NCBI RefSeq assembly: GCF_033842475.1
Contig: NZ_JAWXYB010000018.1
Coordinates: 3,021,501 to 3,085,500, forward strand
Source of the DNA: Acidiphilium acidophilum
GTDB taxonomy: Bacteria; Pseudomonadota; Alphaproteobacteria; Acetobacterales; Acetobacteraceae
DNA: 64,000 nucleotides
Direction: 5' to 3'
Shown here: piece by piece, positions 21,938-46,701 of the stretch
How the letters are laid out: each line of letters begins with the position of its first letter
Position numbering within the stretch: the stretch's first letter is position 1
Notes under the pieces: model-generated
The model's database searches: none
Seen by the model: the letters and a program-made list of their open reading frames with translations, nothing else
What the model was told of the DNA's origin: nothing
Program-made: the position numbers and the translations under genes

Positions 21938-22433
21938 ATGGCCGGTATACCACGAGACCGGCGCAGCGCGCCCCCCGCGCCTGAAATTGCGATCATTGAA
22001 CGCATGGAACCCCCCACGACCTCGAACGACGAATGGCAAACCCGGAACCGCCATACGCAGATCGAGTGAAAGGCTGAACATTCACCGGCGTGCCGCGCCT
22101 ACACCGCCTCCGCACCAGAATCCGCAGGTCGAGAGCTGTCGATCCGCCGAAAGCGGATGACACCCGCCGACGAGCGCTTGACGATGCCGACAAAGCTACT
22201 CATTTTACTAATATAACTATCCGGGCCCCTCTGGCGAGGACGATGACATGGTGTCGTCCAACCTCGCGATGTCGGATCACCGTACCTAATTCGACGCGTG
22301 GCTGAGACGGAATGTGATCCGCACCAATTTTTTTTCGCGATCGGATCATACCATTCTGGCGGCTTCCGCGCTCACGGTGCATCAACTGTGGAGACATCGG
22401 CGCGTGGAAAATTGCAGTGTTGATTGTAAACTT
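21938..22433. other. Non-coding stretch of about 500 nt
   Basis: No convincing gene is seen. It contains the divergent starts of the TauE gene and the 114-aa membrane gene, an A/T-rich patch near 22196-22215, and a dyad TGATCCG/CGGATCA (22314-22348) enclosing a T8 run. Confidence 0.4.
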
Positions 22434-31111: not shown

Positions 31112-31809
31112 GCGCGACCGATGGTTTCAGCGTTGCTGCCAAACCGTACCGGTGGCCCTATGACGGAAAAGCCCAGCCACGGCACACCGCCCTTGTCGTG
31201 ATCGACATGCAGCATGATTTCTGTGGCGTGGGCGGCTACGTGGACGCCATGGGTTATGACATCGCGCTCACCCGCGCGGTGATCGACCCCCTGCGGCGCA
31301 CCCTCGAACGCGTTCGCGCCATCCCCGGCATGATGGTCATCCACACCCGCGAAGGCCACCGCCCGGATCTCGCCGACCTGCCGGCGAACAAACTCTGGCG
31401 CAGTCGCGCCATCGGCGCCGGCATCGGCGATCCCGGGCCGTGCGGGCGCGTGCTGGTTCGAGGCGAGCCGGGGTGGGAAATCATTCCGGAACTTGCCCCG
31501 ATACCGGGCGAAATCGTGATCGACAAACCGGGTAAAGGCAGTTTCTACGCCACCGATCTCGAACTGATCCTCCACGCAAACCGCATCACCCACCTGATCC
31601 TCACCGGGATCACCACCGATGTATGCGTGCATACCACCATGCGCGAAGCCAACGACCGGGGTTTCGAATGTCTGATGCTGACCGATTGCACCGCCGCGAC
31701 CCTGGAAAGCAACAAGCTGGCGGCAATCGAGATGATCCACATGCAGGGCGGCGTATTCGGTGCGACCGCCTCGGCAGCCGATTTTTGCGACGCTCTCGAT
31801 GATCGCTGA
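31108..31809 (+). CDS. Isochorismatase-family cysteine hydrolase (biuret hydrolase-like) 1
   Basis: 233 aa; the start overlaps the permease stop (ATGA). The D-K-C catalytic triad is D33 (VVIDMQHDF), K140 (VIDKPGKG) and C173 (TTDVCVHTT), with spacing close to that of biuret hydrolase (BiuH) and ureidoacrylate hydrolase (RutB). It would hydrolyse a terminal amide or carbamoyl group and release ammonia. It is not an isochorismatase in the siderophore sense, because no siderophore genes are near. The exact substrate is open. Confidence 0.85.
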
Positions 31810-32476
31810 AATCGATGCCAGGCCGTTCACCTTTCGGATGCCGATCGATGGCACCGCGCTGATTTTGATCGACATGCAAAGGGATTTTCTCGACCCCGGG
31901 GGCTTCGGTGCCGCTCTGGGCAACGATGTCTGCCTGTTGCGACCGGCGGTGGCCGCATGTGGGCGACTATTAGCGACATTCAGGGCAAGCGGGATGCCGG
32001 TCATCCACACGCGCGAGGCCCATCGGCCCGATCTGAGCGACTGTCCGCCCGCAAAACGGCTGCGCGGGACACCGTTGCTGCGGATTGGGGACGAGGGACC
32101 GATGGGACGAATATTGATCGCGGGAGACGCGGGCACCGAGATCGTCACCGAATGCGCTCCTGCGGCGGGTGAGCTGGTCATCGACAAGCCGGGAAAGGGC
32201 GCGTTCTACAACACGGACCTGAACCGATATCTCGGTGACAATGGGATAACGACGCTCGTGGTCGGTGGTGTGACGACGGAAGTTTGCGTGCAGACGACCC
32301 TGCGAGAGGCGAACGACCGGGGATATGACTGCCTGTTGATCGAAGAGGCGACGGAAAGCTACGTGCCCGAATTCAAGCGTGTCACGCTCGATATGATCCG
32401 CGCGCAGGGTGCCATCGTCGGGTGGACGTGCACCCTGTCCGCTTTCGAAAGCGGTCTGGCACGGTGTTTTCATTAG
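31799..32476 (+). CDS. Isochorismatase-family cysteine hydrolase 2
   Basis: 225 aa; the start at 31799 overlaps the previous gene by 11 bp. The triad is D25 (LIDMQRDF), K130 (VIDKPGKG) and C163 (TTEVCVQTT). It is a clear paralogue of the preceding gene (both share [20 protein letters not shown] and REANDRG), which suggests either a heteromeric enzyme or two successive amide hydrolyses of one substrate. Confidence 0.85.
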
Positions 32477-32596
32477 CTGTTCGACCAACCGGGCTCTGTG
32501 TTTGGTCGGGCGGTCGGGTCTTTTGCCTCACGGACATGATATGTCCCTGAACGGACATTATCGGCGGGCCGGACAACCCATTGCGGGAGACCCAGA

Positions 32597-33028
32597 TTGA
32601 GCGATGTCGAAATCAACCTCCCCGAGGTGCATGCCGAGCTTTCGGCCATTTTCGATCGTTATGAGCGGGCGTTGATCGAAAACGATATCGATGTCCTGAA
32701 CGAGTTGTTCTGGCAATCGGATCACACCATCCGCTATGGAATCTCGGAGAACCTGCACGGCTTCAGTGAAATCGCCGAATATCGGAGGCGCGTCGTCAAC
32801 AAACAGGCGTCGCGCAGCCTGGGCAACACAGTCATCACGACATTCGGCAACAATTTCGGGACCGTCAACACCGAATTCATTGTCGAAGGCGGCAGGGGCC
32901 GTCAAAGTCAGACATGGATGCGCCTGAACCATGGCTGGCGGATTGTCGCTGCCCATGTGAGCATGCCTGTCAGCCACGATACCGATTCAGGGCAACGACG
33001 ATCGGCGGCCGCCGATAATACTGCCTAA
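32597..33028 (+). CDS. DUF3225 (AtzH/HpxZ-like) protein
   Basis: 143 aa with a TTG start at 32597 (GGGAGA upstream); no in-frame ATG is available. SnoaL/NTF2-like fold: VHAELSAIFDRYERALIENDIDVLNELFW, GFSEIAEYRR, NTVITTFGNNFGTVNTEF and the WMRLNHGWRIVAAHVS ending. Its relatives are HpxZ of oxalurate catabolism and AtzH, the 1,3-dicarboxyurea decarboxylase of cyanuric acid degradation, which makes allophanate. With allophanate hydrolase in the next operon, an AtzH-like role is attractive but unproven. Confidence 0.75.
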   Translation: MSDVEINLPEVHAELSAIFDRYERALIENDIDVLNELFWQSDHTIRYGISENLHGFSEIAEYRRRVVNKQASRSLGNTVITTFGNNFGTVNTEFIVEGGRGRQSQTWMRLNHGWRIVAAHVSMPVSHDTDSGQRRSAAADNTA

Positions 33029-33054: not shown

Positions 33055-33160
33055 ACCATTTATCGCTCATAAAATGGCCATCTAGCAGAAGAGACCCGCT
33101 ATTTTTAGCCGATCTGCTTACAAATGGATCTTGGCATGGATTTTGCTGTTATTGATCCGT

Positions 33161-33267
33161 CGCTAGGGTTCCGGTTGGTGTCTACAGTGCCGATGCTGGT
33201 CCGAGAGCAACAGCCGGGCGGGAGACATCCGCGCGGTACACGGCGGGACAAAAGCCCGGGAGAGCGT
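33161..33267 (+). promoter_or_regulatory. Guanidine-I (ykkC class) riboswitch
   Basis: The leader contains the conserved ykkC blocks in order: CTAGGGTTCCG, then CTGGTCCGAGAGC, then ACACGGCGGGACAAAAGCCCGGGAGA-like sequence (in three pieces at 33164-33174, 33196-33208 and 33238-33264). These are the nearly invariant loops of the guanidine-I aptamer, which binds guanidinium and turns genes on. A small CATGC/GCATG hairpin (33271-33287) before the AAGGAGG site could belong to the expression platform. This ties the downstream 'urea' genes to guanidine. Confidence 0.93.
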
Positions 33268-33348
33268 TTTCATGCGGGGGTTGCATGCGCTGTCCACATC
33301 CGATCCTCGCTTCACATCGACGACCGATCTGAAGGAGGCTCCGACCGA

Positions 33349-34902
33349 ATGAGCGATACCCCCATCACCCCGACCGATCACGCCGACGGGCTACGCGATC
33401 TCGGCTACATTCAGGAACTCAGGCGCGAACTCGGCCCGTTCGCCTCCTTCGCCTCTGGGTTTTCCTTCGTTTCGATCCTGACCACGGTTTTCGAGCTGTT
33501 CGCTTTCGGCTTCGGACTTGGCGGACCGGCGTTCTTCTGGACCTGGCCGATCGTGTTCATCGGCCAGTTCTGCGTCGCGCTGGTGTTTGCCGAACTCTCG
33601 GTCCGCTTTCCGGTCTCGGGCGCGATCTACCAATGGTCCCGCCGGGTCGCGACCGACCCGCTCGGCTGGTTCGCGGGCTGGTTCATGCTGATCGGGTATA
33701 TCGTGAGCGTCTCGGCCATCGCGATTGCGATGCAGGCCGCCCTGCCCGGCGTGTGGTCGGGCTTTCAGCTCGTCGGCGGCAACGCCTCGCCGACGAGTCC
33801 GACCGGCGCGCTCAACGCCATCGTTCTCGGCTCGATCGTGATCCTGATCTGCGGCCTCATCAGCGCCTTTGGCATCAAGCGGCTCGCCACCCTCACCATC
33901 ATCGGAGTGTCCACCGAGATTTTCGGGGTCTGCCTGCTCATCGTCATCCTGTTCACCCATACGGTGCGCGGCCCCGGCGTGATCATGACCACCGGCGGCG
34001 TCGAGGGCCACGGTTCCTACATCTGGCCGTTTCTCGCCTCGATGCTGATGGCGACCTATGTGATGTACGGGTTCGATTCCGCCGCCGAACTTTCGGAGGA
34101 AACCCGCGATCCGCGCCGGACCGCGCCCTCGGCGATCACCCGCTGCATGCTCGTTTCGGCGGTCGGCGGCGGACTGGTTCTGCTCGGCACGCTGATGGCC
34201 TCTCCCAGCCTCGGCGCTGATCTCGCCAATAACGGCATCGCCTATGTGTTGACCGCGCAGGCCGGCAACGTTCTCGGGCGGATCATGCTGGCGATCGTCA
34301 GCGTGTCGATCTTTTCGGCGGCCCTCGCGATCCAGGCTTCGGCGGCCCGGGTGATGTTCAGCATGGCGCGCGATGGCCGCCTGCCGTTCTCGCGCGCGCT
34401 GTCCACCGTTTCGAAACGCACGGCGACGCCGCTGCTGCCGAGCTTCGTGGTCTGCATGACCGCGATCGGGATCCTGCTGCTCAGCCTCGGTTCAGCCAGC
34501 GTGTTCGGCGATATCACCAGCGTCGCCGTCGTCATCGTGTATCTGGCCTATCTCCTCGTGACGCTGCCGTTGCTGATCCAGCGCCTGCGGGGTCATCCGG
34601 TCTATTCCAAACCGCCGCTCGCCGGGCATTTCACGCTGGGCAGATGGGGCCTGCCGGTCAACCTCGTCGCGGTGGTGTTCGGCGCGGTGCTGATGGTCGA
34701 TGTCGCCTGGCCGCGCGCGGAGATCTATAATACCGGCAATGGCCCGTGGCCGATGACCTGGTTTGCGCCGCTGTTCATTCTCGGGGCCACGATCGTCGGC
34801 GCCATCGCGTATCCCATGATGCGCCGGCAGGCGGCCTCGAAAGCGGTAATCATGCCGGACGCGACCGGCCTTACCACCGCACTCGGCCAGGACCCGGCCT
34901 GA
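33349..34902 (+). CDS. APC-family permease of the guanidine operon
   Basis: 517 aa; the ATG at 33349 follows GAAGGAGG. About twelve membrane helices. ELGPFASFASGFSFVSILTTVFELFAFGFGLGGPAFFW and ELSVRFPVSGAIYQWS are typical of the amino-acid/polyamine permeases linked to urea-carboxylase-like genes. It is directly downstream of the guanidine-I riboswitch, so it probably takes up guanidine or a guanidino/ureido compound. Its stop overlaps the next start. Confidence 0.88.
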   Translation: MSDTPITPTDHADGLRDLGYIQELRRELGPFASFASGFSFVSILTTVFELFAFGFGLGGPAFFWTWPIVFIGQFCVALVFAELSVRFPVSGAIYQWSRRVATDPLGWFAGWFMLIGYIVSVSAIAIAMQAALPGVWSGFQLVGGNASPTSPTGALNAIVLGSIVILICGLISAFGIKRLATLTIIGVSTEIFGVCLLIVILFTHTVRGPGVIMTTGGVEGHGSYIWPFLASMLMATYVMYGFDSAAELSEETRDPRRTAPSAITRCMLVSAVGGGLVLLGTLMASPSLGADLANNGIAYVLTAQAGNVLGRIMLAIVSVSIFSAALAIQASAARVMFSMARDGRLPFSRALSTVSKRTATPLLPSFVVCMTAIGILLLSLGSASVFGDITSVAVVIVYLAYLLVTLPLLIQRLRGHPVYSKPPLAGHFTLGRWGLPVNLVAVVFGAVLMVDVAWPRAEIYNTGNGPWPMTWFAPLFILGATIVGAIAYPMMRRQAASKAVIMPDATGLTTALGQDPA

Positions 34903-35720
34903 TGCTCGACCTCGATCGTTTGACACCTGACGAGTATCGCACGCGCTATCTCGAACTTCAGTTCCGCGCCCGCGCGAGGGCCGGTGCATCGAGCCCAACC
35001 GATTTGCCGATGATCCCCCCGGATGACGTCATCGCCACCGAGACCATCCCGCCCGGCGCCTATGCCAGCTTTCGTATCCGCCGGGGCGAGGCGCTGCACA
35101 TCGTCAATCCCGCCGGTACGCCGGGTGCCAGCCTGATGCTGTGGAACGCCGATGATCCCTCGGAACGCTTCAACGCCGGCGATACGCTCAAGCTGCAATG
35201 GACCACGCGCCTCACCACCGGGCGTGTGCTGTTCTCGGACATGGGGCGCATCCTCGCCGCGATCATCGCCGATAGCGGTTCCGGTCATGATGCGGTGCTC
35301 GGTCCTTCGACCGATGCCGTTCTCGGTCCTTCGACCGATGCCGTTCCCGGTCCTTCGACGCCCGATCGCGGTGCCGGGCGCAACGGGCGCGACAATCTGC
35401 GCAACGCCGCCGGTAAATTCGGCCTCAGCCGGCGCGATCTCGCCACCAGCCTCACGCTGTTCGCCGATCTCGCGGTGGGTGAAGACGGCACCATGTGCCT
35501 GCGCCGCGCGCCGTCGCCCGGAAGTTTCGTCACCTTGCGCGCGGAGATGAACCTGCTCGTCGCCCTGTCCAACACACCCCACCCCTTGGCAGCAGGCGGC
35601 GCGACCGGCTCGATCATCGTGACCCGTTATCGCACCGCTGCCGATGCCGCCGCCTTCTGCCGCGCGTTCAGCGAGGAAGCGCGGCGCGGCTTCGAAAACA
35701 ACGACGCCTACTTCGCCTGA
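34902..35720 (+). CDS. DUF1989 protein, carboxyguanidine deiminase subunit-type (UAAP1)
   Basis: 272 aa. The DUF1989 core (about 45-250) is recognisable by IPPGAYASFRIRRGEALHIVNP, LWNADDPSERFNAGDTLKLQ and LFSDMGRILAAIIADS. These 'urea carboxylase-associated' proteins were shown elsewhere to form heteromeric carboxyguanidine deiminase (CgdAB), which converts carboxyguanidine to allophanate and ammonia. A 24-nt unit is triplicated in the conserved loop (DAVLGPST three times), where homologues have one HDxxxGPS segment. The gene overlaps the permease stop by one base. Confidence 0.85.
   Translation: MLDLDRLTPDEYRTRYLELQFRARARAGASSPTDLPMIPPDDVIATETIPPGAYASFRIRRGEALHIVNPAGTPGASLMLWNADDPSERFNAGDTLKLQWTTRLTTGRVLFSDMGRILAAIIADSGSGHDAVLGPSTDAVLGPSTDAVPGPSTPDRGAGRNGRDNLRNAAGKFGLSRRDLATSLTLFADLAVGEDGTMCLRRAPSPGSFVTLRAEMNLLVALSNTPHPLAAGGATGSIIVTRYRTAADAAAFCRAFSEEARRGFENNDAYFA
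35289..35360 (+). repeat. Three tandem 24-nt repeats inside the DUF1989 core
   Basis: Units 35289-35312, 35313-35336 and 35337-35360 differ by only a few bases and encode DAVLGPST, DAVLGPST and DAVPGPST. The insertion keeps the frame and adds 16 residues next to the conserved His-Asp. Confidence 0.92.
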
Positions 35721-35728
35721 GGACCATC

Positions 35729-36361
35729 ATGCTGACCACCCGCACCAATGCCCTGCTCGATGTCACCGTACCGGCCCGCGCCCCCTTCTCGGCGGTGCTG
35801 GACCCGGGCCAGACGCTGCGCATCATCGACCTCGAAAGCCAGCAGGCGGTCGATGCGCTGTTCTACAACGCCGATGACCACACCGAGCGCTATTCCGCGC
35901 AGGACACGCTGCTCGCCCAGGCGCGGGCGGGCGGGCGCTACGACCTCACCACCGGCGCGATCCTGCGCTCCAACGAGGATCGTCCGATGGCGACGATCAT
36001 TGGAGATACCTGCGGCTTTCACGATACCAGCGCGGGCGCGTGCTCCTGCGAATCCAACACCGTCCGCTTCGGTCACGAAACCCGGTACATGCACGCCTGC
36101 CGCGAGAACTTCCTGACCGAACTGGCAAAATACGGCATGGACAAGCGCGACATCGTGGCCAACGTCAATTTTTTCATGAACGTGCCGATCCGCCCGGACG
36201 GCGAACTGACCGTGGATGACGGGGTCTCCGAACCCGGCGGCTATGTCGATCTGCGCGCCGAGATGCGCCTGCTGGTGGTGCTGTCGAACTGCCCGCAGGT
36301 CAACAACCCCTGCAACGGCTTCCGGCCCTCTCCGATCCGCTGCGTCGTGTGGGATCGCTAG
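35729..36361 (+). CDS. DUF1989 protein, carboxyguanidine deiminase subunit-type (UAAP2)
   Basis: 210 aa, the second DUF1989 subunit. Conserved features are GQTLRIIDLESQQAVDALFYNADDHTERYSAQDT and the metal-binding-like cluster DTCGFHDTSAGACSCES with three Cys and one His, followed by RYMHACRENFL. It is eight bases after the first subunit, and the two should act together. The ATG at 35729 lies after GAGGA. Confidence 0.88.
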   Translation: MLTTRTNALLDVTVPARAPFSAVLDPGQTLRIIDLESQQAVDALFYNADDHTERYSAQDTLLAQARAGGRYDLTTGAILRSNEDRPMATIIGDTCGFHDTSAGACSCESNTVRFGHETRYMHACRENFLTELAKYGMDKRDIVANVNFFMNVPIRPDGELTVDDGVSEPGGYVDLRAEMRLLVVLSNCPQVNNPCNGFRPSPIRCVVWDR

Positions 36362-36365
36362 ACCG

Positions 36366-39300
36366 GTGTTCAAGCGCGTCCTGATCGCCAATCGCGGGGA
36401 GGTTCTCGGCCGGATCTGCCGCACCCTCAGGCGGATAAACATCGCCTCCGTTGCGGTCTATGCCGATGCGGACCGGTTCGCGCCCCCGGTGCTCGCGGCG
36501 GATCATGCCGAGCCGATCGGTGCCTCCCCGGCCACTGCGAGCTACCTGAACATCGAGGCCATTATCGCGGCGTGCCATCGCAGCGGGGCGGATGCCGTGC
36601 ATCCCGGCTACGGCTTCCTTGCCGAGCGCGCCGATTTCGCCGAGGCGCTCGGCGCCGAACACATCACCTTCATCGGGCCCCGCCCCACCCATCTGCGCGA
36701 TTTCGGCCTCAAGCACACCGCGCGTGCCCTGGCCGCCGCCGCAGGTGTCCCGCTGCTCCCGGGCTCGGACGTTCTCGCCGGTCGCGACGATGCCCTGGCT
36801 GAGGCCGCGCGGATCGCCTACCCGGTGATGCTCAAGAGCAGTGCCGGCGGTGGCGGCATCGGCATGGCGATCTGCCGCGATGCCGCCGAACTTGCCGCGC
36901 GGTACGACGCCATCGCTCATCTCGCCCGCGCCAATTTCGGCGATGCGGCGCTCTTCCTCGAAAAATACGTCGAGCACGCCCGGCACATCGAAGTCCAGAT
37001 CTTCGGGGACGGCGCAGGCTCCATCCTCACCCTTGGCGCGCGCGATTGCTCCTTGCAGCGGCGCAACCAGAAAGTGATCGAGGAATCTCCGCCGCCCGGG
37101 GTCGAGCCCGCCACCATCGCCGCGATGCAGGACGCTGCCCATGCCCTCGCGGCCAGTGTGAACTACGCCTCCGCCGGCACGGTCGAATTCGTCTATGATC
37201 AGGCAAGCGGCGATTTCCACTTCCTGGAGGTGAATACCCGCCTGCAGGTCGAGCATGGCGTCACCGAGGCGATCTACGGCATCGACCTCGTCGAATGGAT
37301 GATCCGCGAGGCCGCCGGCGGCTTCACCCTGCCGCGCGTCCACCAGACGGGCCATGCGATCGAGGCCCGCCTCTACGCCGAAGATGCCGCCCACGATTTC
37401 ACCCCCGCAACCGGCCGGATCACCGTCGCCCGGTTTCCCGACAATCTGCGGGTCGATACCTGGATCGAGCCCGGGACCCCGATCACCCCGTTCTACGACC
37501 CCACCCTCGCAAAGCTGATTGCGACCGCCCCCACCCGCGACGCCGCCATCGCCCGCCTGCGCACCGGCCTCGCCACCACCACCATCCACGGGGCCGCGAC
37601 CAATCGTGACTATCTGATCGCGGCGCTCGACCGTCCGGATTTCCGCGCCGGCACCATGACCACACGGAGCCTTGCGGACCACGCTGCGCCGTCCCGCAGC
37701 GTCCGGGTGCTGGAGCCCGGCGCGCAATCATCGCTGCAATCGATCCCGGGGCGGCGTGGCTACTGGCATGTCGGCATCCCGCCCAGCGGCCCGATGGACG
37801 CGCGCAGCGCCGCCCGCGCCAACGCCATCGTCGGCAACCGGCCCGATGCCGCCGTGCTGGAATGCACCCTCGCCGGCCCGCGCCTGCAGTTTCGCAGCCG
37901 GGCCGTCATCGCGTTGACCGGTGCCGCCATGGCCGCGAGCATCGATGGCGTGACGATCCCGCATGAGGCCGCCGTCACGATCGAACCCGGCGGGATCCTC
38001 GCGATCGGTGCTATCGCCGGCCCGGGCCAGCGCAGCTATCTCGCCGTCGCGGGGGGATTCGTCGCCGCCGATTGCCTCGGCTCAACCGCAACCTTCACCC
38101 TCGGCGGCTTCGGCGGCCACGCCACCGGCGCGCTGCGGACCGGCGATGTCATCGGCCTCGCGGAGGAGCCCGCGATCCCGTCGATCCCGATTGCCGCAGC
38201 CCCTATCACCGACACATGGCAGATTACGCTGATTCCCGGCCCGCATGGCGCGCCCGATTTCTTTACGCAGGCCGACATCGCCACCCTGTTCACCGCCCCC
38301 TACGCGGTCCACCACAACTCATCGCGCACCGGGGTGCGCCTGATCGGCCCGAAACCCGCCTGGGCCCGGGCGGATGGTGGCGATGCCGGGCTGCACCCCT
38401 CCAACATCCACGACACGCCCTATGCGATCGGCGCCGTCGATTTCACCGGCGACATGCCGATATTACTTGGCCCGGACGGACCCTCGCTCGGCGGCTTCGT
38501 GTGTCCCGGCGTCATCGCGTCCGACGAATTGTGGAAACTCGGCCAGCTCCGCCCGGGCAACATCGTTCATTTCACCCGCGCCGACTCCGACCCGATCATC
38601 CTGCACCGCTCGGACACCATGACCATCCGGCGCGCCGGCGATGAGAACATCCTGATCGAATTCGGCGCGATGACGCTGGATTTCGCCCTCCGCCTGCGCG
38701 CCCACGCCCTGCAACGGGCCCTCGCCGAGCAGAACCTGCCCGGCATCATCGACCTCACCCCCGGCATCCGCTCGCTGCAGGTCCATTTCGACCCCGCCCG
38801 CCTCGACCGCGCCACCCTGCTCGGCCTGATCCGCACCCTCGAGCCGGACCTGCCCGATCCCGCCGCCATGATCGTGCCCTCCCGCATCGTCCATCTGCCG
38901 CTGTCGTGGAAGGACAGCACGGTGCTGCTGGCGATGCGGAAATATCAGGAGACCGTGCGCGAAGACGCCCCCTGGTGCCCCGACAATGTCGAATTCATCC
39001 GTCGCATCAACGGTCTCGACTCCGAAGCCGATGTCCGGCGGATCGTGTTCGACGCCGATTACCTCGTCCTCGGCCTCGGCGATGTCTATCTCGGCGCGCC
39101 GGTCGCCACGCCGATCGACCCGCGCCATCGCCTGGTCACCACCAAATACAACCCCGCCCGCACCTGGACGCCGGAGAACGCGGTGGGCATTGGTGGCGCG
39201 TATCTCTGCGTCTATGGCATGGAGGGTCCCGGCGGCTATCAGTTGTTCGGCCGCACGATCCAGATGTGGAACAGCTTCCCCAACGGCAAACCGCCGTTCG

Positions 39301-39836
39301 GCGATACCCCGTGGCTGCTGCGCAATTTCGACCGCCTGCGGTTCCATCCGGTGACCGAGGAGGAGCTCGCCGAAGCCCGCGCCGCCTTCCCCCACGGACG
39401 CTACCCGATCACGATCGAGGACGGGCATTTTTCCCTCGCGGCACATGAGGCGTTCGTTGCCGCCAACACCACCGCGATCGCGACGTTCCAGACCCGCCAG
39501 CGCGCGGCCTTCGCTGCCGAACGCGCGGCCTGGGCCGAGGCCGGGCTCGACACAGCGCCCTTGCCCGAGATTGCGCCGATCACCGTCGATACGCCGCTGC
39601 CCCCGGGGAACCGGGGCGTCGCCGCGCCGGTTCCCGGTAGTATCTGGCAGGTTCTGCATGGGCCGGGCGATCGGGTCGAAGCCGGAGACTCGCTGATGAT
39701 CGTGGAATCGATGAAAATGGAGGTCCAGATCCCTGCGGATGTTTCAGGCGTTGTCGTCTCGGTCGCAGCGGTGCCCGGTCAGGTGGTTCGTGCCGGCCAG
39801 CGCGTGGCGGTGATCGCCATGGACGAAGCGGCATGA
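36366..39836 (+). CDS. Biotin-dependent guanidine carboxylase (urea carboxylase family)
   Basis: 1156 aa, GTG start at 36366. Domain order: biotin carboxylase with ATP-grasp (about 1-450; FKRVLIANRGE, HPGYGFLAE, KSSAGGGGIGMA, EVNTRLQVEHGVTE), then the AHS2/KipA-like (about 470-770) and AHS1/KipI-like carboxyltransferase domains, ending in a biotinyl domain with K1117 (VESMKMEVQ). The family carboxylates urea or guanidine. The guanidine-I riboswitch and the two DUF1989 genes argue for guanidine to carboxyguanidine. Its stop overlaps the allophanate hydrolase start. Confidence 0.9.
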   Translation: MFKRVLIANRGEVLGRICRTLRRINIASVAVYADADRFAPPVLAADHAEPIGASPATASYLNIEAIIAACHRSGADAVHPGYGFLAERADFAEALGAEHITFIGPRPTHLRDFGLKHTARALAAAAGVPLLPGSDVLAGRDDALAEAARIAYPVMLKSSAGGGGIGMAICRDAAELAARYDAIAHLARANFGDAALFLEKYVEHARHIEVQIFGDGAGSILTLGARDCSLQRRNQKVIEESPPPGVEPATIAAMQDAAHALAASVNYASAGTVEFVYDQASGDFHFLEVNTRLQVEHGVTEAIYGIDLVEWMIREAAGGFTLPRVHQTGHAIEARLYAEDAAHDFTPATGRITVARFPDNLRVDTWIEPGTPITPFYDPTLAKLIATAPTRDAAIARLRTGLATTTIHGAATNRDYLIAALDRPDFRAGTMTTRSLADHAAPSRSVRVLEPGAQSSLQSIPGRRGYWHVGIPPSGPMDARSAARANAIVGNRPDAAVLECTLAGPRLQFRSRAVIALTGAAMAASIDGVTIPHEAAVTIEPGGILAIGAIAGPGQRSYLAVAGGFVAADCLGSTATFTLGGFGGHATGALRTGDVIGLAEEPAIPSIPIAAAPITDTWQITLIPGPHGAPDFFTQADIATLFTAPYAVHHNSSRTGVRLIGPKPAWARADGGDAGLHPSNIHDTPYAIGAVDFTGDMPILLGPDGPSLGGFVCPGVIASDELWKLGQLRPGNIVHFTRADSDPIILHRSDTMTIRRAGDENILIEFGAMTLDFALRLRAHALQRALAEQNLPGIIDLTPGIRSLQVHFDPARLDRATLLGLIRTLEPDLPDPAAMIVPSRIVHLPLSWKDSTVLLAMRKYQETVREDAPWCPDNVEFIRRINGLDSEADVRRIVFDADYLVLGLGDVYLGAPVATPIDPRHRLVTTKYNPARTWTPENAVGIGGAYLCVYGMEGPGGYQLFGRTIQMWNSFPNGKPPFGDTPWLLRNFDRLRFHPVTEEELAEARAAFPHGRYPITIEDGHFSLAAHEAFVAANTTAIATFQTRQRAAFAAERAAWAEAGLDTAPLPEIAPITVDTPLPPGNRGVAAPVPGSIWQVLHGPGDRVEAGDSLMIVESMKMEVQIPADVSGVVVSVAAVPGQVVRAGQRVAVIAMDEAA

Positions 39837-41626
39837 TCCCCGATCCGCTCGAAATCGCGGTCCTGCGCCGGATGATCCGCGAAGGACAACTGACCGTGCC
39901 GGAACTGGCGGGGATGTTGCACGACCGCGCCGTCGCCTATCCCGATCCTGCGGTCTTCATCGCCTTGCGCGACCGGGCCGACCTGCTGGCCGAAGCCGCG
40001 TCGATCGACCCCGGCCTGCCGCTCGCCGGCATGGTATTCGCGGTCAAGGACAACATCGACGTGGCAGGGCTGCCGACGACCGCAGCCTGTCCCGCTTTCT
40101 CCTATGTGCCGGTGAAGGATGCCGCCGTCGTGGCCCGCCTGCGCGCGGCGGGCGCAATCCCGCTCGGCAAGACCAATCTCGACCAGTTCGCCACCGGGTT
40201 GAACGGCACCCGGTCCCCTCATGGCGCGCCACGCTCGGTATTCGACAACGCCTATGTCTCGGGCGGCTCGTCATCGGGCTCGGCCGTCGCGGCGGGGGCC
40301 GGGCTTTGCGTCTTCGCCCTCGGCACCGATACGGCGGGCTCCGGTCGGGTTCCAGCCGGGTTCAACAATCTGATCGGCCTGAAACCCACGCGCGGCCGCA
40401 TCCCCGCCAGCGGCGTGGTGCCGGCCTGCCAGAGCCTCGATTGCGTCAGCATCTTCGCCAATTCCGCCGCCGATGCGGCACTGCTCCTTGCCATCGCCCA
40501 AGGCCATCAGCCTGACGATCCCTACAGCCGCGTACCCGCCGACATTGCCTTGCCGCCCCGGCCCCGGATCGGCGTTCTCGCCCCCGCAGAGCGGGTCTTC
40601 GCCGATGATGCCGCCTACGCTGCCCTCCACGAAGCCGCGCTCACCCGGGCCACCGCCCTGGGATGGACGCTGGTCGAAATCGATTACGCGCCGTTCCGCG
40701 CGGCGGCGGCCCTGCTCTACGAGGATGCCTTCGTCGCCGAACGCCTCGCTGCGATCCGGCCGTTCTTCCACGGCCATGCCGACGCGATGGACCCTGTCGT
40801 CGCCGCAATCATCGGGGGTGCCGAACGTTTCGACGCAGCGGACGCGTTCATTGCCGCCACCCGCCTGATGGCGCTGCGCCAGCAGACCGACGCCATTCTC
40901 GCGGGCATCGATGCGCTGCTGCTGCCGACCAGCCCGACGATCTACACCGTGGCCGAACTGCGCGCCCAGCCCATCGCCCGCAACGCCATGCTCGGGCGCT
41001 ACACCAATTTCGTGAACCTGCTCGATCTCGCAGCGGTGGCGCTGCCCGCCGGTTTCCGGCCGGACGGGCTGCCGTTCGGCATGACCCTGATCGGCCCCGC
41101 GTTCAGCGACCGCGCCCTGCTTCACCTCGCGGATGTGCTGCATGACGCAATCGGCGCCGGTGCCGGAGCGACCCGCGCGCACCCGACGACGACCCTGCCC
41201 CGCCCCGTGGACGACCGCATCTCCCTCATCGTCGCCGGCGCCCATTTGTCCGGTATGGCGCTCAACCACGAATTGACCGACCGCGGTGCGATTCTTGAGG
41301 ACGTCACAACCACCGCGCCAGCCTACCGCCTGTATGCCCTTTCGACCACGCCGCCGAAGCCCGGACTGGTCCGCGACGAGACCAGCACCACCGCGATCGC
41401 GGTCGAACGCTGGTCGCTGACGCCTGCGGCTTTCGCCAGCTTCGTCGCCTCACTCCCGGCCCCCATGACCATCGGCAAGGTCGAACTCGCCGATGGCGCT
41501 CTCCATCCGGGCTTCTGCTGCGAGCCCACCGCCATCGCCCATGCCACCGACATCACTGACCATGGCGGCTGGCGGGCCTACCGCGCCAGTATTTCGGCAC
41601 CCCCCGTTCAGGAGGCAATCACATGA
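39833..41626 (+). CDS. atzF: Allophanate hydrolase
   Basis: 597 aa. The amidase-signature domain has the Ser-cisSer-Lys triad: K72 (VKDNID), S146 (GGSSSGS) and nucleophile S170 (GTDTAGS). The C-terminal domain of about 150 aa (LIVAGAHLSGMALNHELTDRGA) is typical of AtzF/DUR1,2-type hydrolases. It splits allophanate into two CO2 and two ammonia, the final step for guanidine, urea-carboxylase and biuret routes alike. It overlaps both neighbours by 4 bp. Confidence 0.93.
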   Translation: MIPDPLEIAVLRRMIREGQLTVPELAGMLHDRAVAYPDPAVFIALRDRADLLAEAASIDPGLPLAGMVFAVKDNIDVAGLPTTAACPAFSYVPVKDAAVVARLRAAGAIPLGKTNLDQFATGLNGTRSPHGAPRSVFDNAYVSGGSSSGSAVAAGAGLCVFALGTDTAGSGRVPAGFNNLIGLKPTRGRIPASGVVPACQSLDCVSIFANSAADAALLLAIAQGHQPDDPYSRVPADIALPPRPRIGVLAPAERVFADDAAYAALHEAALTRATALGWTLVEIDYAPFRAAAALLYEDAFVAERLAAIRPFFHGHADAMDPVVAAIIGGAERFDAADAFIAATRLMALRQQTDAILAGIDALLLPTSPTIYTVAELRAQPIARNAMLGRYTNFVNLLDLAAVALPAGFRPDGLPFGMTLIGPAFSDRALLHLADVLHDAIGAGAGATRAHPTTTLPRPVDDRISLIVAGAHLSGMALNHELTDRGAILEDVTTTAPAYRLYALSTTPPKPGLVRDETSTTAIAVERWSLTPAAFASFVASLPAPMTIGKVELADGALHPGFCCEPTAIAHATDITDHGGWRAYRASISAPPVQEAIT

Positions 41627-42624
41627 CCCGTCTTTTTCGCTACCCTGACGGCATCGTCCTTAACCTCGCCGCGCTGGGGTATGCCGTTTCAGGCTGGGTC
41701 GGTGGCATCGCCCTGATCGTTGCCGCAGGACCGATCGGGTCGATCTGCGGGATTCTGCTGATTGCTCACGCCCTCGCGATCAGCGCCTATCTGATCCATG
41801 AATGCGAACACGGCACGATTTTCGCGCGCACCCGCCACAACGACCGTCTGGGCGCTGCACTGGCCTGGATGTCAGGCGCCTGCATCGCGCCTTATGCCGG
41901 GCTCAAGGAAAAGCACCTTCGCCATCATGCCGACCGGCTGGATGTGGTCAGCTTCGACTATCGCGCCGTACTTCAGGCCGGACCTTCCTGGTTCCGGACC
42001 GCCGTGCTTGCGCTGGAATATGCCTACATTCCCGCGGTCGAGTATCTGATGCGCGGGCTGATCATCGGTCACCGCTGGCAACTGGGCGGTTCATCGCGGG
42101 TCAGGATCGTGACGGTGCTGGCCATCCGGTTGGCGGCGTTCACAGCCCTCGGCATCGCCGCCCCGGCGGCCCTGATCGCCTACGCGATCGCCTATGCGGT
42201 CTTTCTCCACATCCTGCGGTTTCAGGATGCGTTCCAGCATACGTTCGACGTCTATCATGCGCCCGATCTAGCAGCGGCCCCCGCGGCATTGGTGCGGGAT
42301 CGTGCCTACGAGCAGGCCAACACCTACTCCGACGTGGTCAGCGCCGATCATCCCTGGATGAATGCTCTGGTTCTGAACTTCGCCTATCACAACGCGCATC
42401 ACGCGAAACCCGCAGAACCCTGGTATCGCCTCGGAAAACTGCACCGGAAGCTCTACGCGGAGGACAGCACCCAGGTCCTGCCGGTCCGCATGCTGCTCGC
42501 GAGCTATCACCGCCATCGAGTGACCCGCGTGATGGCCGCGCATTACGGCAGCGTGGCGCCCGAAGGGGACCGGGCAGCAGGGTTTCTCGGTGCGGTCGGC
42601 GTTTCCTTCCTTACGGCTTCATGA
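41623..42624 (+). CDS. Membrane fatty-acid desaturase/hydroxylase-family protein
   Basis: 333 aa with about four membrane helices and the three histidine boxes of membrane-bound non-haem diiron enzymes: HECEHGT (H59-H63), HLRHHAD (H98-H102) and HNAHH (H256-H260). The start overlaps the atzF stop (ATGA) and the stop overlaps the next start, so it is firmly inside the guanidine operon. This family desaturates or hydroxylates acyl chains and other substrates. In this setting it may oxidise a guanidino compound so that guanidine is released; that is inference. Confidence 0.83.
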   Translation: MTRLFRYPDGIVLNLAALGYAVSGWVGGIALIVAAGPIGSICGILLIAHALAISAYLIHECEHGTIFARTRHNDRLGAALAWMSGACIAPYAGLKEKHLRHHADRLDVVSFDYRAVLQAGPSWFRTAVLALEYAYIPAVEYLMRGLIIGHRWQLGGSSRVRIVTVLAIRLAAFTALGIAAPAALIAYAIAYAVFLHILRFQDAFQHTFDVYHAPDLAAAPAALVRDRAYEQANTYSDVVSADHPWMNALVLNFAYHNAHHAKPAEPWYRLGKLHRKLYAEDSTQVLPVRMLLASYHRHRVTRVMAAHYGSVAPEGDRAAGFLGAVGVSFLTAS

Positions 42625-43694
42625 TGAAATCGGCTGCTCTCGTCATCATCGATATGCAGCGTGACTTCTGTTGCCCCGGCGGATACGCCGATCGCGCCGG
42701 CCTCGATGTCGAGCAGCTCGCCGCGCCGATTCCCAAAATCGTCCGCCTCCTCGACCGTTTCAGGACGAAGGGGATGACGGTCATCTACACGCGCGAAGGG
42801 CATCGTCGCGATCTGTCGGATTGTTCGCCACGCAAGCTGCGCCGCTCCGTCCTGGCCGGCGCGGCGATCGGCTCCGAAGGAGCCTTGGGTCGCGCGCTCG
42901 TGCGGGGCGAATACGGCCATGACATCGTCGATGAATTGTCGGCGCAGCCCGGCGATATCATGATCGACAAGCCTGGCTATTCGGCATTTCACGCGACCGA
43001 CCTCGATCATATCCTCAGGGCACGCGCGATCGAGACCCTGATCCTGACCGGCGTGACGACGGATGTATGCGTCCATTCGACCCTGCGATCGGCGATTGAT
43101 CATGGTTATGACTGTCTGACGGTTTCCGACGCGACAGCCTGCCACGATCCGCGCATCCAGCATGCAATGCTTCAGTTGATCGAGGGCGAGTCCAACATCT
43201 TTGGACGAGTCATGGCCTGTGACCTCTCTGTGCTGCACTTGATGATCAGGAGGTGTTCGCATGACGGCCGTCCGAAAATTCTGGCCTTTGCTCACCGGCA
43301 CCTATACTTACGACAAGTCGATCTCCACCCGAAATCGTGGTATGGGTATTGCGATCGAAGCGCCGATCCTCGCCTATCTGATCGAAACCACCCAGGGCCG
43401 GATTCTCTACGATGTCGGCTGCGACTATCGCAAGATCGACGATCCCGCCTTGCGCGCCCGCTACTACGGCGATCTGCCGTTTCCACCGCCGGACATGCCG
43501 GCCGACCATCGGCTTCCCGCCCGCCTTCGCACCCTTGGGCTCGACCCGCGCGATATCGATCTGGTCTTTCTCGGCCACCTGCATTTCGACCACGTCGGTG
43601 GCCTGCACGACTTCGCCCATGCCGACATCCACGTCCACGAGGCCGAACGACTTGCGGCCGGGGAGCCCGGCGCACGCGGCTATTTCCCGGATGA
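42621..43694 (+). CDS. Isochorismatase-family cysteine hydrolase 3, stop codon apparently lost
   Basis: The triad is D11 (IIDMQRDF), K117 (MIDKPGYS) and C150 (TTDVCVHST). Family length predicts an end near 43250 (about 210 aa). The frame instead runs on for 148 more codons, in Arg/Pro-rich antiphase over the next gene, to a stop at 43694. A +1 shift just before 43250 would give TGATGA, so a frameshift near the 3' end is likely. The catalytic domain is intact. The start overlaps the desaturase stop (ATGA). Confidence 0.8.
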   Translation: MMKSAALVIIDMQRDFCCPGGYADRAGLDVEQLAAPIPKIVRLLDRFRTKGMTVIYTREGHRRDLSDCSPRKLRRSVLAGAAIGSEGALGRALVRGEYGHDIVDELSAQPGDIMIDKPGYSAFHATDLDHILRARAIETLILTGVTTDVCVHSTLRSAIDHGYDCLTVSDATACHDPRIQHAMLQLIEGESNIFGRVMACDLSVLHLMIRRCSHDGRPKILAFAHRHLYLRQVDLHPKSWYGYCDRSADPRLSDRNHPGPDSLRCRLRLSQDRRSRLARPLLRRSAVSTAGHAGRPSASRPPSHPWARPARYRSGLSRPPAFRPRRWPARLRPCRHPRPRGRTTCGRGARRTRLFPG

Positions 43695-44037
43695 TTTTGC
43701 CGCCGACTACCGGTGGCATCTCCAACGCGGTGAATACGACCTGACCCCCGGCGTCACCGCAATCGAGAGCCCCGGCCACACCGCTGGCCATATGTCGATG
43801 CTGATCGAACTCCCGCGCGGTGCTCCCATCCTGCTCTGTGGCGACGCCGCCGACCTCATCGAGAACCTTGAGGACGAAATCGCGCCCGGGCTCTGCTACC
43901 GCGATGATGAAACGGCGGCACTCGCCTCACTCCGGGCATTGAAATCCCGCGCCTGCTCGTGCGGCGCGCATCTATGGCCCAACCATGACATCGGTTTTTT
44001 TCGCACCCAGGACAGGTTCCCCCAATGGCTGGACTGA
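43261..44037 (+). CDS. Metallo-beta-lactamase-fold hydrolase
   Basis: 258 aa, AGGAGG before the ATG. It has the HLHFDHVGG zinc motif and a late GHTAGHMSML, resembling the N-acyl-homoserine-lactonase/glyoxalase-II-like branch. Its location between amide hydrolases and the ABC importer suggests that it opens a lactone, lactam or ester in the same catabolic pathway; quorum quenching is an alternative. It overlaps the next gene by 13 bp. Confidence 0.85.
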   Translation: MTAVRKFWPLLTGTYTYDKSISTRNRGMGIAIEAPILAYLIETTQGRILYDVGCDYRKIDDPALRARYYGDLPFPPPDMPADHRLPARLRTLGLDPRDIDLVFLGHLHFDHVGGLHDFAHADIHVHEAERLAAGEPGARGYFPDDFAADYRWHLQRGEYDLTPGVTAIESPGHTAGHMSMLIELPRGAPILLCGDAADLIENLEDEIAPGLCYRDDETAALASLRALKSRACSCGAHLWPNHDIGFFRTQDRFPQWLD

Positions 44038-44885
44038 CTGACGACCTGACTGACGACATGGCCGATCCCGCGCCCCCCGCTGCGGAACGGTACAAGCCGA
44101 TCCGCCCGCCGATCTGGGTCGTGCGCGGTTCGCTCGACCGCCGACGCTATCTCGGCATGGCAACCGCGAGCTTCCTCGGCCTGCTCTGTTTATGGTGGGT
44201 CGTCGCGGCGAGCGGTTCGGTCAATCCGCTGTTCCTGCCCGGTCCGGTCGCAGTGGTCCGCGCCCTGATCGACTGGTGGCAGACCGGCAATCTGGTCAAC
44301 GATATCGGAATCTCGGTCTATCGCGTCATGGCCGGATTTGCCCTCTCCGCAATCATGGCGGTGCCGCTCGGCCTGTATATCGGTGCGTATCAACCGGTTC
44401 GCGCCCTGTTCGAACCGATGATGGAGTTTGCCCGCTATCTGCCCGCGGTCGCGTTCGTTCCGCTGGTGCTGCTGTGGTTCGGCCTCGGCGAGTCTTCGAA
44501 GATCGCGCTGATCTGGATCGGAACCTTCTTTCAGATGGTCCTGATGATCTCCGAGGATGCCAACCGCGTGCCGATGGCCCAGATCGAGGCGGCCCGCACC
44601 CTCGGTGCCACCAATCGCGAAATCATGCGCCTTGTCCTGCTCCGCTCGGCCATGCCGGCGATGCTCGACACGTTGCGCATCACCCTGGGGTTCGCCTGGA
44701 CCTATCTCGTGGTCGCCGAACTCATTGCCGCCAATTCCGGGCTCGGCTACGCGATCCTCCGCGCCCAGCGGTTCCTCCAGACCGACAAGATCTTCGTTGG
44801 AATCATCCTCATCGGCCTGATCGGCCTGCTGACCGATCAGGTTCTGCGCCGTCTGCACCGCTTCATGTTTCCCTGGCTGCAATGA
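44025..44885 (+). CDS. ABC transporter permease, NitT/TauT type
   Basis: 286 aa, six membrane helices, with the EAA loop (IEAARTLGATNREIMRLVLLRSAMP). The family is SsuC/TauC-like. It overlaps the hydrolase before it and the ATPase after it. It belongs to the guanidine operon importer. Confidence 0.9.
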   Translation: MAGLTDDLTDDMADPAPPAAERYKPIRPPIWVVRGSLDRRRYLGMATASFLGLLCLWWVVAASGSVNPLFLPGPVAVVRALIDWWQTGNLVNDIGISVYRVMAGFALSAIMAVPLGLYIGAYQPVRALFEPMMEFARYLPAVAFVPLVLLWFGLGESSKIALIWIGTFFQMVLMISEDANRVPMAQIEAARTLGATNREIMRLVLLRSAMPAMLDTLRITLGFAWTYLVVAELIAANSGLGYAILRAQRFLQTDKIFVGIILIGLIGLLTDQVLRRLHRFMFPWLQ

Positions 44886-45727
44886 CCAATTCCGTCATCC
44901 TGCAGGGCGTGTCGAAAACCTTCCCCGGCGGTTTCGAGGCGTTGCAACCGATCAACCTGACCATTGCACAAGGCAGCTTCACCGCCATCGTGGGCGCATC
45001 GGGCTGTGGCAAATCCACCCTGCTGCGCATCATCGCCGGGTTGGAAACCCGAAGCACCGGCCGGATTCTGGTGGATGGCCAACCTGTCACCGGCCCGGGG
45101 CGCGATCGCACCATGGTGTTCCAGGATTACAGCCTCTACCCATGGCTGACGGTGATGGAAAACATCCGCTTCTGCCGTTCGCTCGCCGCCCACGCCCGCG
45201 ACGCGACCGACAGCGAAATCGGCGACGCGACGCGGCGCAGCGTCGCTCTGCTCAACCTGATGGGTCTCGCACGGGTCGAGCGCGCCTACCCGAACCAGCT
45301 TTCGGGCGGCATGCGCCAGCGCGTCGCCATCGCCCGTGCCCTGATGGCAAAGCCCGCGGTATTGCTGATGGACGAACCGTTCGGCGCCCTGGATGCCCAG
45401 ACCCGCGAAGTCATGCACGACCTCATCCTGCACGTGAAATCCGCGGAGCGGAAAACCATCCTCTTCGTCACCCACGACGTCGAGGAAGCGATCTACCTCG
45501 CCGACCGCGTCGTGGTCATGGCCCCTCACCCCGGGCGGATCGACGCGATCGAGGATGTCCCGTTCGCCCGCCGTCACCGCGACCTCCGCCTCGACCCCGC
45601 CTTTCTTGCCCTGAAACGCATCATTACCGACCGCATTCGCGCGACCGCTGGCATGTCCGCCGACCTCGACGGAATGAGGTCTCTCACTGAACCGGCAACC
45701 TCACATCATCCTGGGAATCAGCAATGA
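44882..45727 (+). CDS. ABC transporter ATP-binding protein, NitT/TauT type
   Basis: 281 aa. Walker A GASGCGKST, Q-loop VFQDYSLYPWLTV, signature LSGGMRQR, Walker B VLLMDEPFGALD and H-loop THDVEEA are all intact. It energises the permease encoded just upstream; the start overlaps that gene (ATGA). Confidence 0.93.
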   Translation: MTNSVILQGVSKTFPGGFEALQPINLTIAQGSFTAIVGASGCGKSTLLRIIAGLETRSTGRILVDGQPVTGPGRDRTMVFQDYSLYPWLTVMENIRFCRSLAAHARDATDSEIGDATRRSVALLNLMGLARVERAYPNQLSGGMRQRVAIARALMAKPAVLLMDEPFGALDAQTREVMHDLILHVKSAERKTILFVTHDVEEAIYLADRVVVMAPHPGRIDAIEDVPFARRHRDLRLDPAFLALKRIITDRIRATAGMSADLDGMRSLTEPATSHHPGNQQ

Positions 45728-46701
45728 AATCATACAAACTCGTCATCGCCGCGCTCGCCACCACCACCACGGTGCTTGCCGCACCTGCGGCCCGGGCTGC
45801 TACTCCGGTCACCTTCGCGATGAACGCCTGGATCGGCTTCGCCCCGCTCTTCGTCGCGGCGGACAAAAAATTCTTCGGCGCCTACCCGATCAGGTTCGTC
45901 CACATGGAAACCGGCATCAACGCAGCCGTCGTCTCCGGATCGGTCGATTCCGCCGATCTGTCGATGAACCAGGTGATCGGCGACCATCTCAAGGGGTTCG
46001 ACATCAAGATCGTCATGCCGATCGACTATTCGAACGGTGCGGACGCCATCGTGGCGCGCAAATCGATCACGTCGGTGGCCGATCTGCGTGGCAAGACGAT
46101 CCCGCTCGATACGACGTCGTATTCCGAGCTTCTGCTCGCCTACGCATTGCATCAGGCAAAACTGACATTGGCAGATGTGAAATCGACCAATATGCCGGCA
46201 TCCGATGTGCCGGCAGCCCTGTTGGGCGGCCATGCGGTAGCGGGAGTCACGTGGGCACCGCATATATCGATGGTCACGGGCAACCCCAAATTCCATGCCT
46301 TGTTCACATCGGCCGCGGCCCCCGGCCTCATCACCGATAATTTCGCGGTGAAGACGAGCTTCCTGAAAGCCCACCCCGATGCCATGCCGGCAATCATCAA
46401 GGGATTTCTCGAAGGCGAAGACTATATCAAATCCCACCCGGCGGAATCCTACGGCATCATCGGCAAGGCCCTCGGTATCTCACCAGCGGATGCAAGTTCA
46501 CAGTACAAGCTGGTCATCAATCCAAATCTCCCGGAAATGAAATACATGATGACCGGATCAGGTCACTTCAAAATCATACCCTACAAATCGAATGTCGCAC
46601 TGGTAACGAAATTGATGAGACTTCAAGGCGAAATCAAGTCAAACCAGAGTGTGACGGAACCGGATCTGTTTGATGCAAAATATATCTCTGCTATGAAATG
46701 A
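45724..46701 (+). CDS. ABC transporter periplasmic substrate-binding protein (NMT1/SsuA-like)
   Basis: 325 aa. A signal peptide (LVIAALATTTTVLAAPAARA) is followed by the NMT1/TauA-type fold (VTFAMNAWIGFAPLFVAADKKFFG). It is last in the operon. By context it binds guanidine or its precursor. Unlike nitrate or taurine importers, it is not near assimilation genes for those substrates. Confidence 0.9.
   Translation: MKSYKLVIAALATTTTVLAAPAARAATPVTFAMNAWIGFAPLFVAADKKFFGAYPIRFVHMETGINAAVVSGSVDSADLSMNQVIGDHLKGFDIKIVMPIDYSNGADAIVARKSITSVADLRGKTIPLDTTSYSELLLAYALHQAKLTLADVKSTNMPASDVPAALLGGHAVAGVTWAPHISMVTGNPKFHALFTSAAAPGLITDNFAVKTSFLKAHPDAMPAIIKGFLEGEDYIKSHPAESYGIIGKALGISPADASSQYKLVINPNLPEMKYMMTGSGHFKIIPYKSNVALVTKLMRLQGEIKSNQSVTEPDLFDAKYISAMK

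Follow-up and report, generated by a model that had tools for sequence, protein, structure and literature searches.

A known route for guanidine is the guanidine carboxylase pathway, in which a Guanidine-I riboswitch stands ahead of the genes for guanidine carboxylase (Gca), the carboxyguanidine deiminase subunits CgdA and CgdB and the allophanate hydrolase AtzF. In Vreelandella boliviensis such an operon is extended by MgdH, a 2-oxoglutarate dioxygenase that hydroxylates methylguanidine, and by MgdL, which splits N-(hydroxymethyl)guanidine and is modelled as a beta-barrel needing Asp49 and Arg51 (accessible part of PMC12508155). Here we present an operon of Acidiphilium acidophilum, located in a stretch of 64,000 nt which as a whole is called the window. 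It shares with the guanidine carboxylase operon the riboswitch, a carboxylase with the Asp signature, both deiminase subunits and the allophanate hydrolase, but adds a membrane desaturase-type protein, an isochorismatase-family amidase, a metallo-beta-lactamase (MBL)-fold hydrolase and a second import system. Judging from sequence comparison, we hold it to be fairly probable that this riboswitch-controlled pathway oxidises an N-substituted guanidine and frees guanidine, with a membrane oxygenase in the place of MgdH. The carboxylase pathway itself is known; its extension by what is likely a guanidine-releasing pathway with a membrane oxygenase is probably new.

The riboswitch-headed operon

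Eleven genes lie 3' of the aptamer, all on the plus strand and in the order given below, and their joins range from a 13-bp overlap to an 8-bp gap, the start codons at the joins being our choice.

33152..33264, + strand: Guanidine-I riboswitch aptamer (RF00442, 77.2 bits, gathering score 63)
33349..34902, + strand: APC permease of the urea/guanidine carboxylase type (PF13520; TIGR03428 599 bits, below the cut-off of 740)
34902..35720, + strand: CgdA, carboxyguanidine deiminase subunit, DUF1989 (PF09347; TIGR03425 213.3 bits, cut-off 205.95)
35729..36361, + strand: CgdB, carboxyguanidine deiminase subunit, DUF1989 (PF09347; TIGR03424 302 bits, cut-off 284.7)
36366..39836, + strand: guanidine carboxylase, Gca (TIGR02712 1618 bits; Asp692)
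39833..41626, + strand: AtzF, allophanate hydrolase (TIGR02713 728 bits, cut-off 511; PF21986 C-terminal domain)
41623..42624, + strand: membrane desaturase-type protein, proposed diiron hydroxylase (PF00487 106 bits; invariant histidines; conserved cassette)
42621..43259, + strand: isochorismatase-family cysteine hydrolase, guanylurea-hydrolase-like (61.4% to Pseudomonas plasmid hydrolases; Asp11/Lys117/Cys150; Glu190)
43261..44037, + strand: MBL-fold hydrolase, lactonase branch (PF00753)
44025..44885, + strand: ATP-binding cassette (ABC) importer permease, abcP (PF00528)
44882..45727, + strand: ABC importer ATPase of the nitrate/taurine type, abcA (PF00005; TIGR01184 below its cut-off)
45724..46701, + strand: ABC importer substrate-binding protein of the NMT1 type, sbp (PF09084; TIGR01728 and TIGR03427, both below cut-off)

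An earlier note on this DNA had described a riboswitch-headed guanidine operon with extra enzymes, which is borne out by an aptamer above its gathering score and by matching gene order and families. Its statement that 4-bp overlaps join the extra genes holds for both joins of the desaturase-type gene (such overlaps also occur at gca/atzF, abcP/abcA and abcA/sbp), but not further on, as the isochorismatase-type gene is followed by a 1-bp gap and the MBL gene overlaps abcP by 13 bp. We infer that the genes are co-transcribed; promoter-like and terminator-like sites were in no excess between 32900 and 47400 (2 against 2.6 in shuffled sequences and 4 against 6.3, respectively). A 98% identical locus was found in a metagenome-assembled genome of Acidiphilium (L017).

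The aptamer is the sole Guanidine-I match of Rfam in the 4.16-Mb genome. In the predicted fold of 33152-33360 the Shine-Dalgarno region pairs with an upstream stretch; this fold is not more stable than those of shuffled sequences (z -0.52), and no significant switch was detected in it. A further Rfam match in the window, TB10Cs3H1, was taken as chance. Downstream of the aptamer, CgdA and CgdB score above the cut-offs of the UAAP1/UAAP2 models. Asp692 of the carboxylase, in the motif GAVDFTGD, aligns with an Asn of the Kluyveromyces lactis urea carboxylase (3va7) which, from the motif, should be position 1330. Since Asp instead of Asn at this position is the published mark separating guanidine from urea carboxylases (accessible text of PMC11410670), the enzyme of the operon is assigned as a guanidine carboxylase. 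With Gca, CgdA, CgdB and AtzF behind a Guanidine-I aptamer, the locus belongs to the guanidine carboxylase operons.

Conservation of the desaturase-type protein and its cassette

The desaturase-type protein belongs to the membrane fatty acid desaturase/hydroxylase superfamily, as it matches PF00487 and carries conserved histidines: His 59, 63, 98, 101, 102, 206, 256, 259 and 260 are invariant among 8 homologues and stand at box-like positions. These histidines suggest that it binds iron, as a diiron centre. The protein is rare, being present in 2 of 200 genomes of its family and 7 of 398 genomes of the phylum, with its own genome included in both counts. Its PF00487 membership would also suit a common lipid desaturase that was carried into the operon and plays no role in guanidine metabolism. 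However, the NCBIfam lipid and carotenoid models give only about 20 bits, far under their cut-offs, and across many genera the protein is linked to guanidine riboswitches, the importer and MgdL homologues; this explanation is therefore very improbable, and the conserved linkage of the cassette led us to discard it. No desaturase in guanidine operons was found described in the searchable literature, key subscription papers lying outside that search, and the "desaturase" in the accessible parts of PMC12186494, PMC11410670 and PMC11018352 is the dioxygenase NapI. More distant relatives (42-44%) adjoin an ABC importer without the remaining cassette at two loci (L015, L016), and a xylose-isomerase-like TIM-barrel gene lies near the desaturase relative at L008/L015.

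Conservation was studied at the best 80 of 334 desaturase relatives from a scan of named genomes; the loci are related by descent, and two of them (L010 and L026) represent a single piece of one genome. In many relatives the cassette comprises sbp, the desaturase-type gene, two short-chain dehydrogenases/reductases (SDRs), an EamA transporter, a creatininase, the amidase, the MBL hydrolase, a small protein weakly similar to PF16815 (MgdL-like, see below) and the ABC permease and ATPase. Counted by our own open reading frame search and thresholds in the 48 long loci (at least 7 kb after the desaturase), the MgdL-like protein occurs in 39, the amidase type in 36 and the MBL hydrolase and the creatininase in 33 each. 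Concerning the MBL hydrolase, H106, H108, D110 and H111 are kept in more than 95% of 46 sequences, and its best NCBIfam models are those of the N-acyl homoserine lactone lactonase AiiA (132 bits, under the cut-off of 325) and of 4-pyridoxolactonase (123 bits, under 375).

Many of these cassettes have a guanidine riboswitch of their own. According to our own motif scan, a Guanidine-I motif stands directly 5' of the first cassette gene (sbp or desaturase) at 60 of the 80 loci, and for 42 of these neither gca nor atzF nor cgdB was seen on the piece retrieved, many pieces being short or cut by a contig end. For Rfam, 45 of the 80 genomes were picked by hand, mainly those with longer loci, and cmscan was run directly on 24 loci. 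Guanidine-I was found in all 45 genomes, with at least two copies in 36 (the second one of G612 only below cut-off), and just 5' of the cassette in 35, of which 34 hits are above the cut-off; that of L063 (53.4 bits) is under it. These hits were assigned to loci by coordinates with no check of contig names, and the motif scan agrees in all 35 except L063. The arrangement differs between loci: at L081 the riboswitch precedes abcP-abcA-sbp-desaturase, at L065, L088 and L096 the cassette lies downstream of the guanidine genes on the same strand, and in Acidiphilium sp. PA (L018) a desaturase-amidase-MBL-ABC-sbp block stands behind its own riboswitch while the carboxylase is on another contig, so that the window holds a fused form.

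The carboxylase gene accompanies the cassette in most carriers, gca being matched in 43 of the 45 genomes at an E-value of 1e-150 and in 41 at 1e-200. In the phylum sample it was found (1e-200) in 6/6 desaturase carriers other than our own genome, against 39/391 genomes that lack the desaturase (Fisher p 1.6e-6, kinship uncorrected). The earlier note had proposed to look for the extra enzymes beside guanidine genes in other genomes, and such conservation is indeed what the riboswitch-headed cassettes and the gca carriers reveal. Guanidine-II riboswitches also occur at guanidine-gene loci (L038 3603-3650, L060 8230-8275, L065 3173-3221 and L096 2444-2488). In an Acidocella-type variant (L010, L023, L024, L026) the desaturase, LysR and ABC genes lie beside gca, with no own riboswitch on the piece, together with a further gene that we take to encode a luciferase-like monooxygenase.

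The MgdL link and the guanylurea-hydrolase-like amidase

The small cassette protein was likened to MgdL on the basis of the published description and not of the MgdL sequence. It has an invariant Asp48-x-Arg50 in 15 aligned rows, and the Asp and Arg are present in 46/46 cassette rows (45 distinct) and in 10/10 dioxygenase-paired homologues. Its structure model is confident and rich in strands; matches in the PDB are weak, the best being lipocalin-like barrels and none reaching an E-value of 0.001, while a search of plasmids yielded two weak matches only. The profile of this protein was run on 42 genomes (39 gca carriers without the desaturase, plus G000, G336 and G391) and retrieved 10 homologues in 9 of them, one genome holding two. 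All 10 have an MgdH-like dioxygenase no more than 2.3 kb away, and 7 of the 10 are on a fetched stretch with gca. On the other hand, no MgdH-like protein was found on the fetched piece of any of the 87 desaturase loci (86 distinct). MgdL-type proteins partner either the dioxygenase or, apparently, the membrane protein. At L114 the genes run cgdB-gca-dioxygenase-homologue, similar to the published operon, other ABC genes preceding atzF, and the residues of the homologue are exactly at 49 and 51. At L112 a stretch with gca and guanidine genes also encodes sbp, EamA, MgdL-like, MgdH-like, MBL and creatininase proteins, and by its gene content this locus appears to be a like cassette with the dioxygenase replacing the desaturase-type protein.

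Compared with the V. boliviensis operon (PMC12508155, as far as accessible), the window likewise has a Gca operon extended by a proposed oxygenase-based release of guanidine, and relatives of its cassette hold an MgdL homologue as V. boliviensis does. The two differ in that a membrane desaturase-type protein stands for the 2-oxoglutarate dioxygenase, in that the window genome has no MgdL, and in that many of the relatives' cassettes have their own riboswitch.

The amidase of the window also points to guanidine metabolism. Over 93% of its length it reaches 61.4% with the closest plasmid hydrolases, which are from Pseudomonas (KHPS1, hydrolytica and mendocina), and it is 57.8% identical to the KHPS1 protein over 211 columns. 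It keeps the catalytic Asp11, Lys117 and Cys150, and shares with the KHPS1 protein Ala23, Ala26, His100, Tyr120 and Glu190, where the biuret hydrolase BiuH has Val, Met, Trp, Lys and Gln; Glu190 is found in all 50 group members having a residue there. By triad and shared residues it thus resembles the plasmid type of GuuH (guanylurea hydrolase), with the KHPS1 protein as reference. According to the accessible part of PMC9800807, the KHPS plasmids are listed as carrying GuuH, and BB_00025 of the MET plasmid hydrolyses guanylurea at 11 umol/min/mg while showing very little activity on biuret; equating the KHPS1 protein with BB_00025 rests on a table of that paper and on the equal match values of H1 and H3. 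The amidase has the family and the triad in common with the guanylurea hydrolases GuuH (P. mendocina GU, MET), Glu190 with the KHPS1 homologue, and about 60% identity with the plasmid type, to which it is compared here and which shares no more than 44.8% identity with the first GuuH (strain GU); in contrast to GuuH it sits behind a desaturase-type protein, and its activity would be GuuH-like. It shares family and triad with BiuH and the triuret hydrolase TrtA as well, but has Glu for Gln at a substrate-reading position: Q202 of TrtA contacts the substrate (accessible text of PMC7948467) and stands 40 residues past the catalytic Cys162, as does Glu190 past Cys150. A carboxylate at position 190 would suit a guanidinium. 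Biuret hydrolase was excluded as the identity of 42621-43259 by this change and by the BiuH model NF050097 (236 bits, cut-off 370). The earlier note had placed all the extra enzymes outside the described pathway; this needs correction for the isochorismatase-type one which, as a close relative of guanylurea hydrolase, is not new to guanidine metabolism.

With such a relative, the operon could also be one for guanylurea, the importer taking up guanylurea and the amidase turning it directly into guanidine, while the desaturase and the MBL hydrolase serve a separate purpose. The 61% identity to an enzyme group with a tested guanylurea hydrolase (MET) speaks for this, and so does the KHPS1 homologue, whose neighbours are an ABC importer, a LysR gene and a nucleoside deaminase, with no desaturase among them. 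However, some riboswitch-headed desaturase cassettes have no detected amidase-type gene (12 of the 48 long loci), and MBL and MgdL-like genes recur alongside the desaturase relatives, so that we regard a guanylurea operon as improbable. On the KHPS1 plasmid the nucleoside deaminase gene (L100 8499-8984) lies immediately 5' of the guanylurea hydrolase homologue.

Proposed route, substrate and neighbourhood

In the oxidative route that we favour, the ABC importer would bring in an N-substituted guanidine and the desaturase-type enzyme would place a hydroxyl group on the carbon that adjoins a guanidine nitrogen; the resulting hemiaminal would resemble the N-(hydroxymethyl)guanidine formed by MgdH. 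In most long cassettes elsewhere an MgdL-type lyase, accompanied by varying sets of SDRs, creatininase, GuuH-like amidase and MBL hydrolase, would then free the guanidine. Alternatively, the hemiaminal would be oxidised to an acylguanidine and hydrolysed. This hydrolytic branch is likelier in the window because its genome shows no MgdL; there hydrolysis of the oxidised product, which would resemble an acylguanidine, probably falls to the GuuH-like amidase and the MBL hydrolase, and the dehydrogenase would come from elsewhere in the genome. The guanidine would bind the riboswitch and be mineralised by Gca, CgdAB and AtzF. The outline of the earlier note (import, oxidation, hydrolysis, release of guanidine) fits the conserved cassette, but the MgdL link favours a small N-substituted guanidine over a long-chain compound.

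Several observations weigh against this route. The riboswitch senses guanidine and not the substrate of the pathway. Neither MgdL (whose profile matched 9 of the other 41 genomes) nor MgdH (in a search with no positive control) has a match in the window genome, and the operon has no SDR and no creatininase, so that the analogy to MgdH/MgdL is strongest for the relatives and not for the window. The gene set varies between the 48 long loci, as the counts given above show, and the MBL and EamA proteins of L112 are not close to those of the cassette. Six loci (L019, L022, L023, L026, L034 and L072) are without an own riboswitch, the genomes of L046 and L095 have Guanidine-I with gca unmatched, and among the six phylum positives, G336 and G391 are only distantly related and lack the other cassette genes. 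The structure model of the desaturase-type protein (predicted local distance difference test, pLDDT, 68) is too weak for comparison, and the KHPS1 gene, as mentioned, has no desaturase beside it. Finally, the base of the amidase tree does not settle whether the enzyme is nearer to GuuH or to BiuH, and an attempt to derive GuuH ancestry from it failed.

Since a creatininase is present in 33 of the 48 long cassettes, a cyclic acylguanidine may be involved, for instance creatinine or one of its oxidised forms. A whole oxidative creatinine route can be drawn from this, in which the substrate of the membrane enzyme is creatinine or a related cyclic compound, the SDRs oxidise the product, and creatininase, MBL hydrolase and amidase open it to (methyl)guanidine. 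One of the cassette creatininases scores 374.9 bits with the NCBIfam creatininase model, above the cut-off of 235, and residues 34, 36, 45, 120 and 122, which we take to have a metal role, are kept in 54/54 cassette creatininases. At position 174, however, all 54 have Phe, Tyr or Thr, and at 78 Cys in 49 of 54, where the copy of our own genome has Trp and Ser; Trp174 is presumably the wild-type residue of the P. putida enzyme, the PDB row used reading Phe there. At position 154 the own copy has Phe, while the reference and all 54 cassette rows have Trp. Moreover, the window operon lacks a creatininase, the genome's copy (353 bits, cut-off 235) lying elsewhere by creatinase-like and amine-oxidase genes, and the release of guanidine rather than methylguanidine needs an extra step. 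Abiotic formation of methylguanidine from creatinine, as cited in the accessible part of PMC12508155, would favour a creatinine source. On balance the creatinine route is unlikely, though it retains some weight, and creatinine was not adopted as the certain substrate in view of positions 78 and 174 and of the operon's missing creatininase. The genes around the own copy (L099 9229-16468, outside the window) encode, apart from the creatininase, a creatinase-like M24 protein and a DAO-family amine oxidase, and look like a separate creatinine cluster.

Upstream of the operon, 29798-33028 encodes a CodB-like permease, BiuH (421.7 bits, cut-off 370), a TrtA-like hydrolase (284 bits to TrtA 6xix, 201 to BiuH) and an AtzH/HpxZ-like gene. 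This is likely a biuret/triuret route, which would share AtzF with the guanidine operon. A terC RNA lies at 22213-22284 (42.5 bits).

Beyond the oxidative release of guanidine, a bolder proposal may be put forward tentatively: the desaturase-type protein would found a new class of membrane diiron hydroxylases for small guanidino compounds (methylguanidine, creatinine or a related one) as a non-homologous stand-in for MgdH, the riboswitch cassette would be a widespread natural source of the guanidine that is sensed, and the hydrolases of guanylurea from metformin waste would have been recruited from its amidase. The natural origin of free guanidine is still little known despite the wide spread of guanidine riboswitches, and a cassette behind its own guanidine riboswitch in many Proteobacteria offers concrete genes and a testable reaction. 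If the proposed route is true, an unrelated oxygenase would be added to guanidine release and MgdL would gain a second partner, and a role of guanylurea hydrolases before metformin would be suggested.

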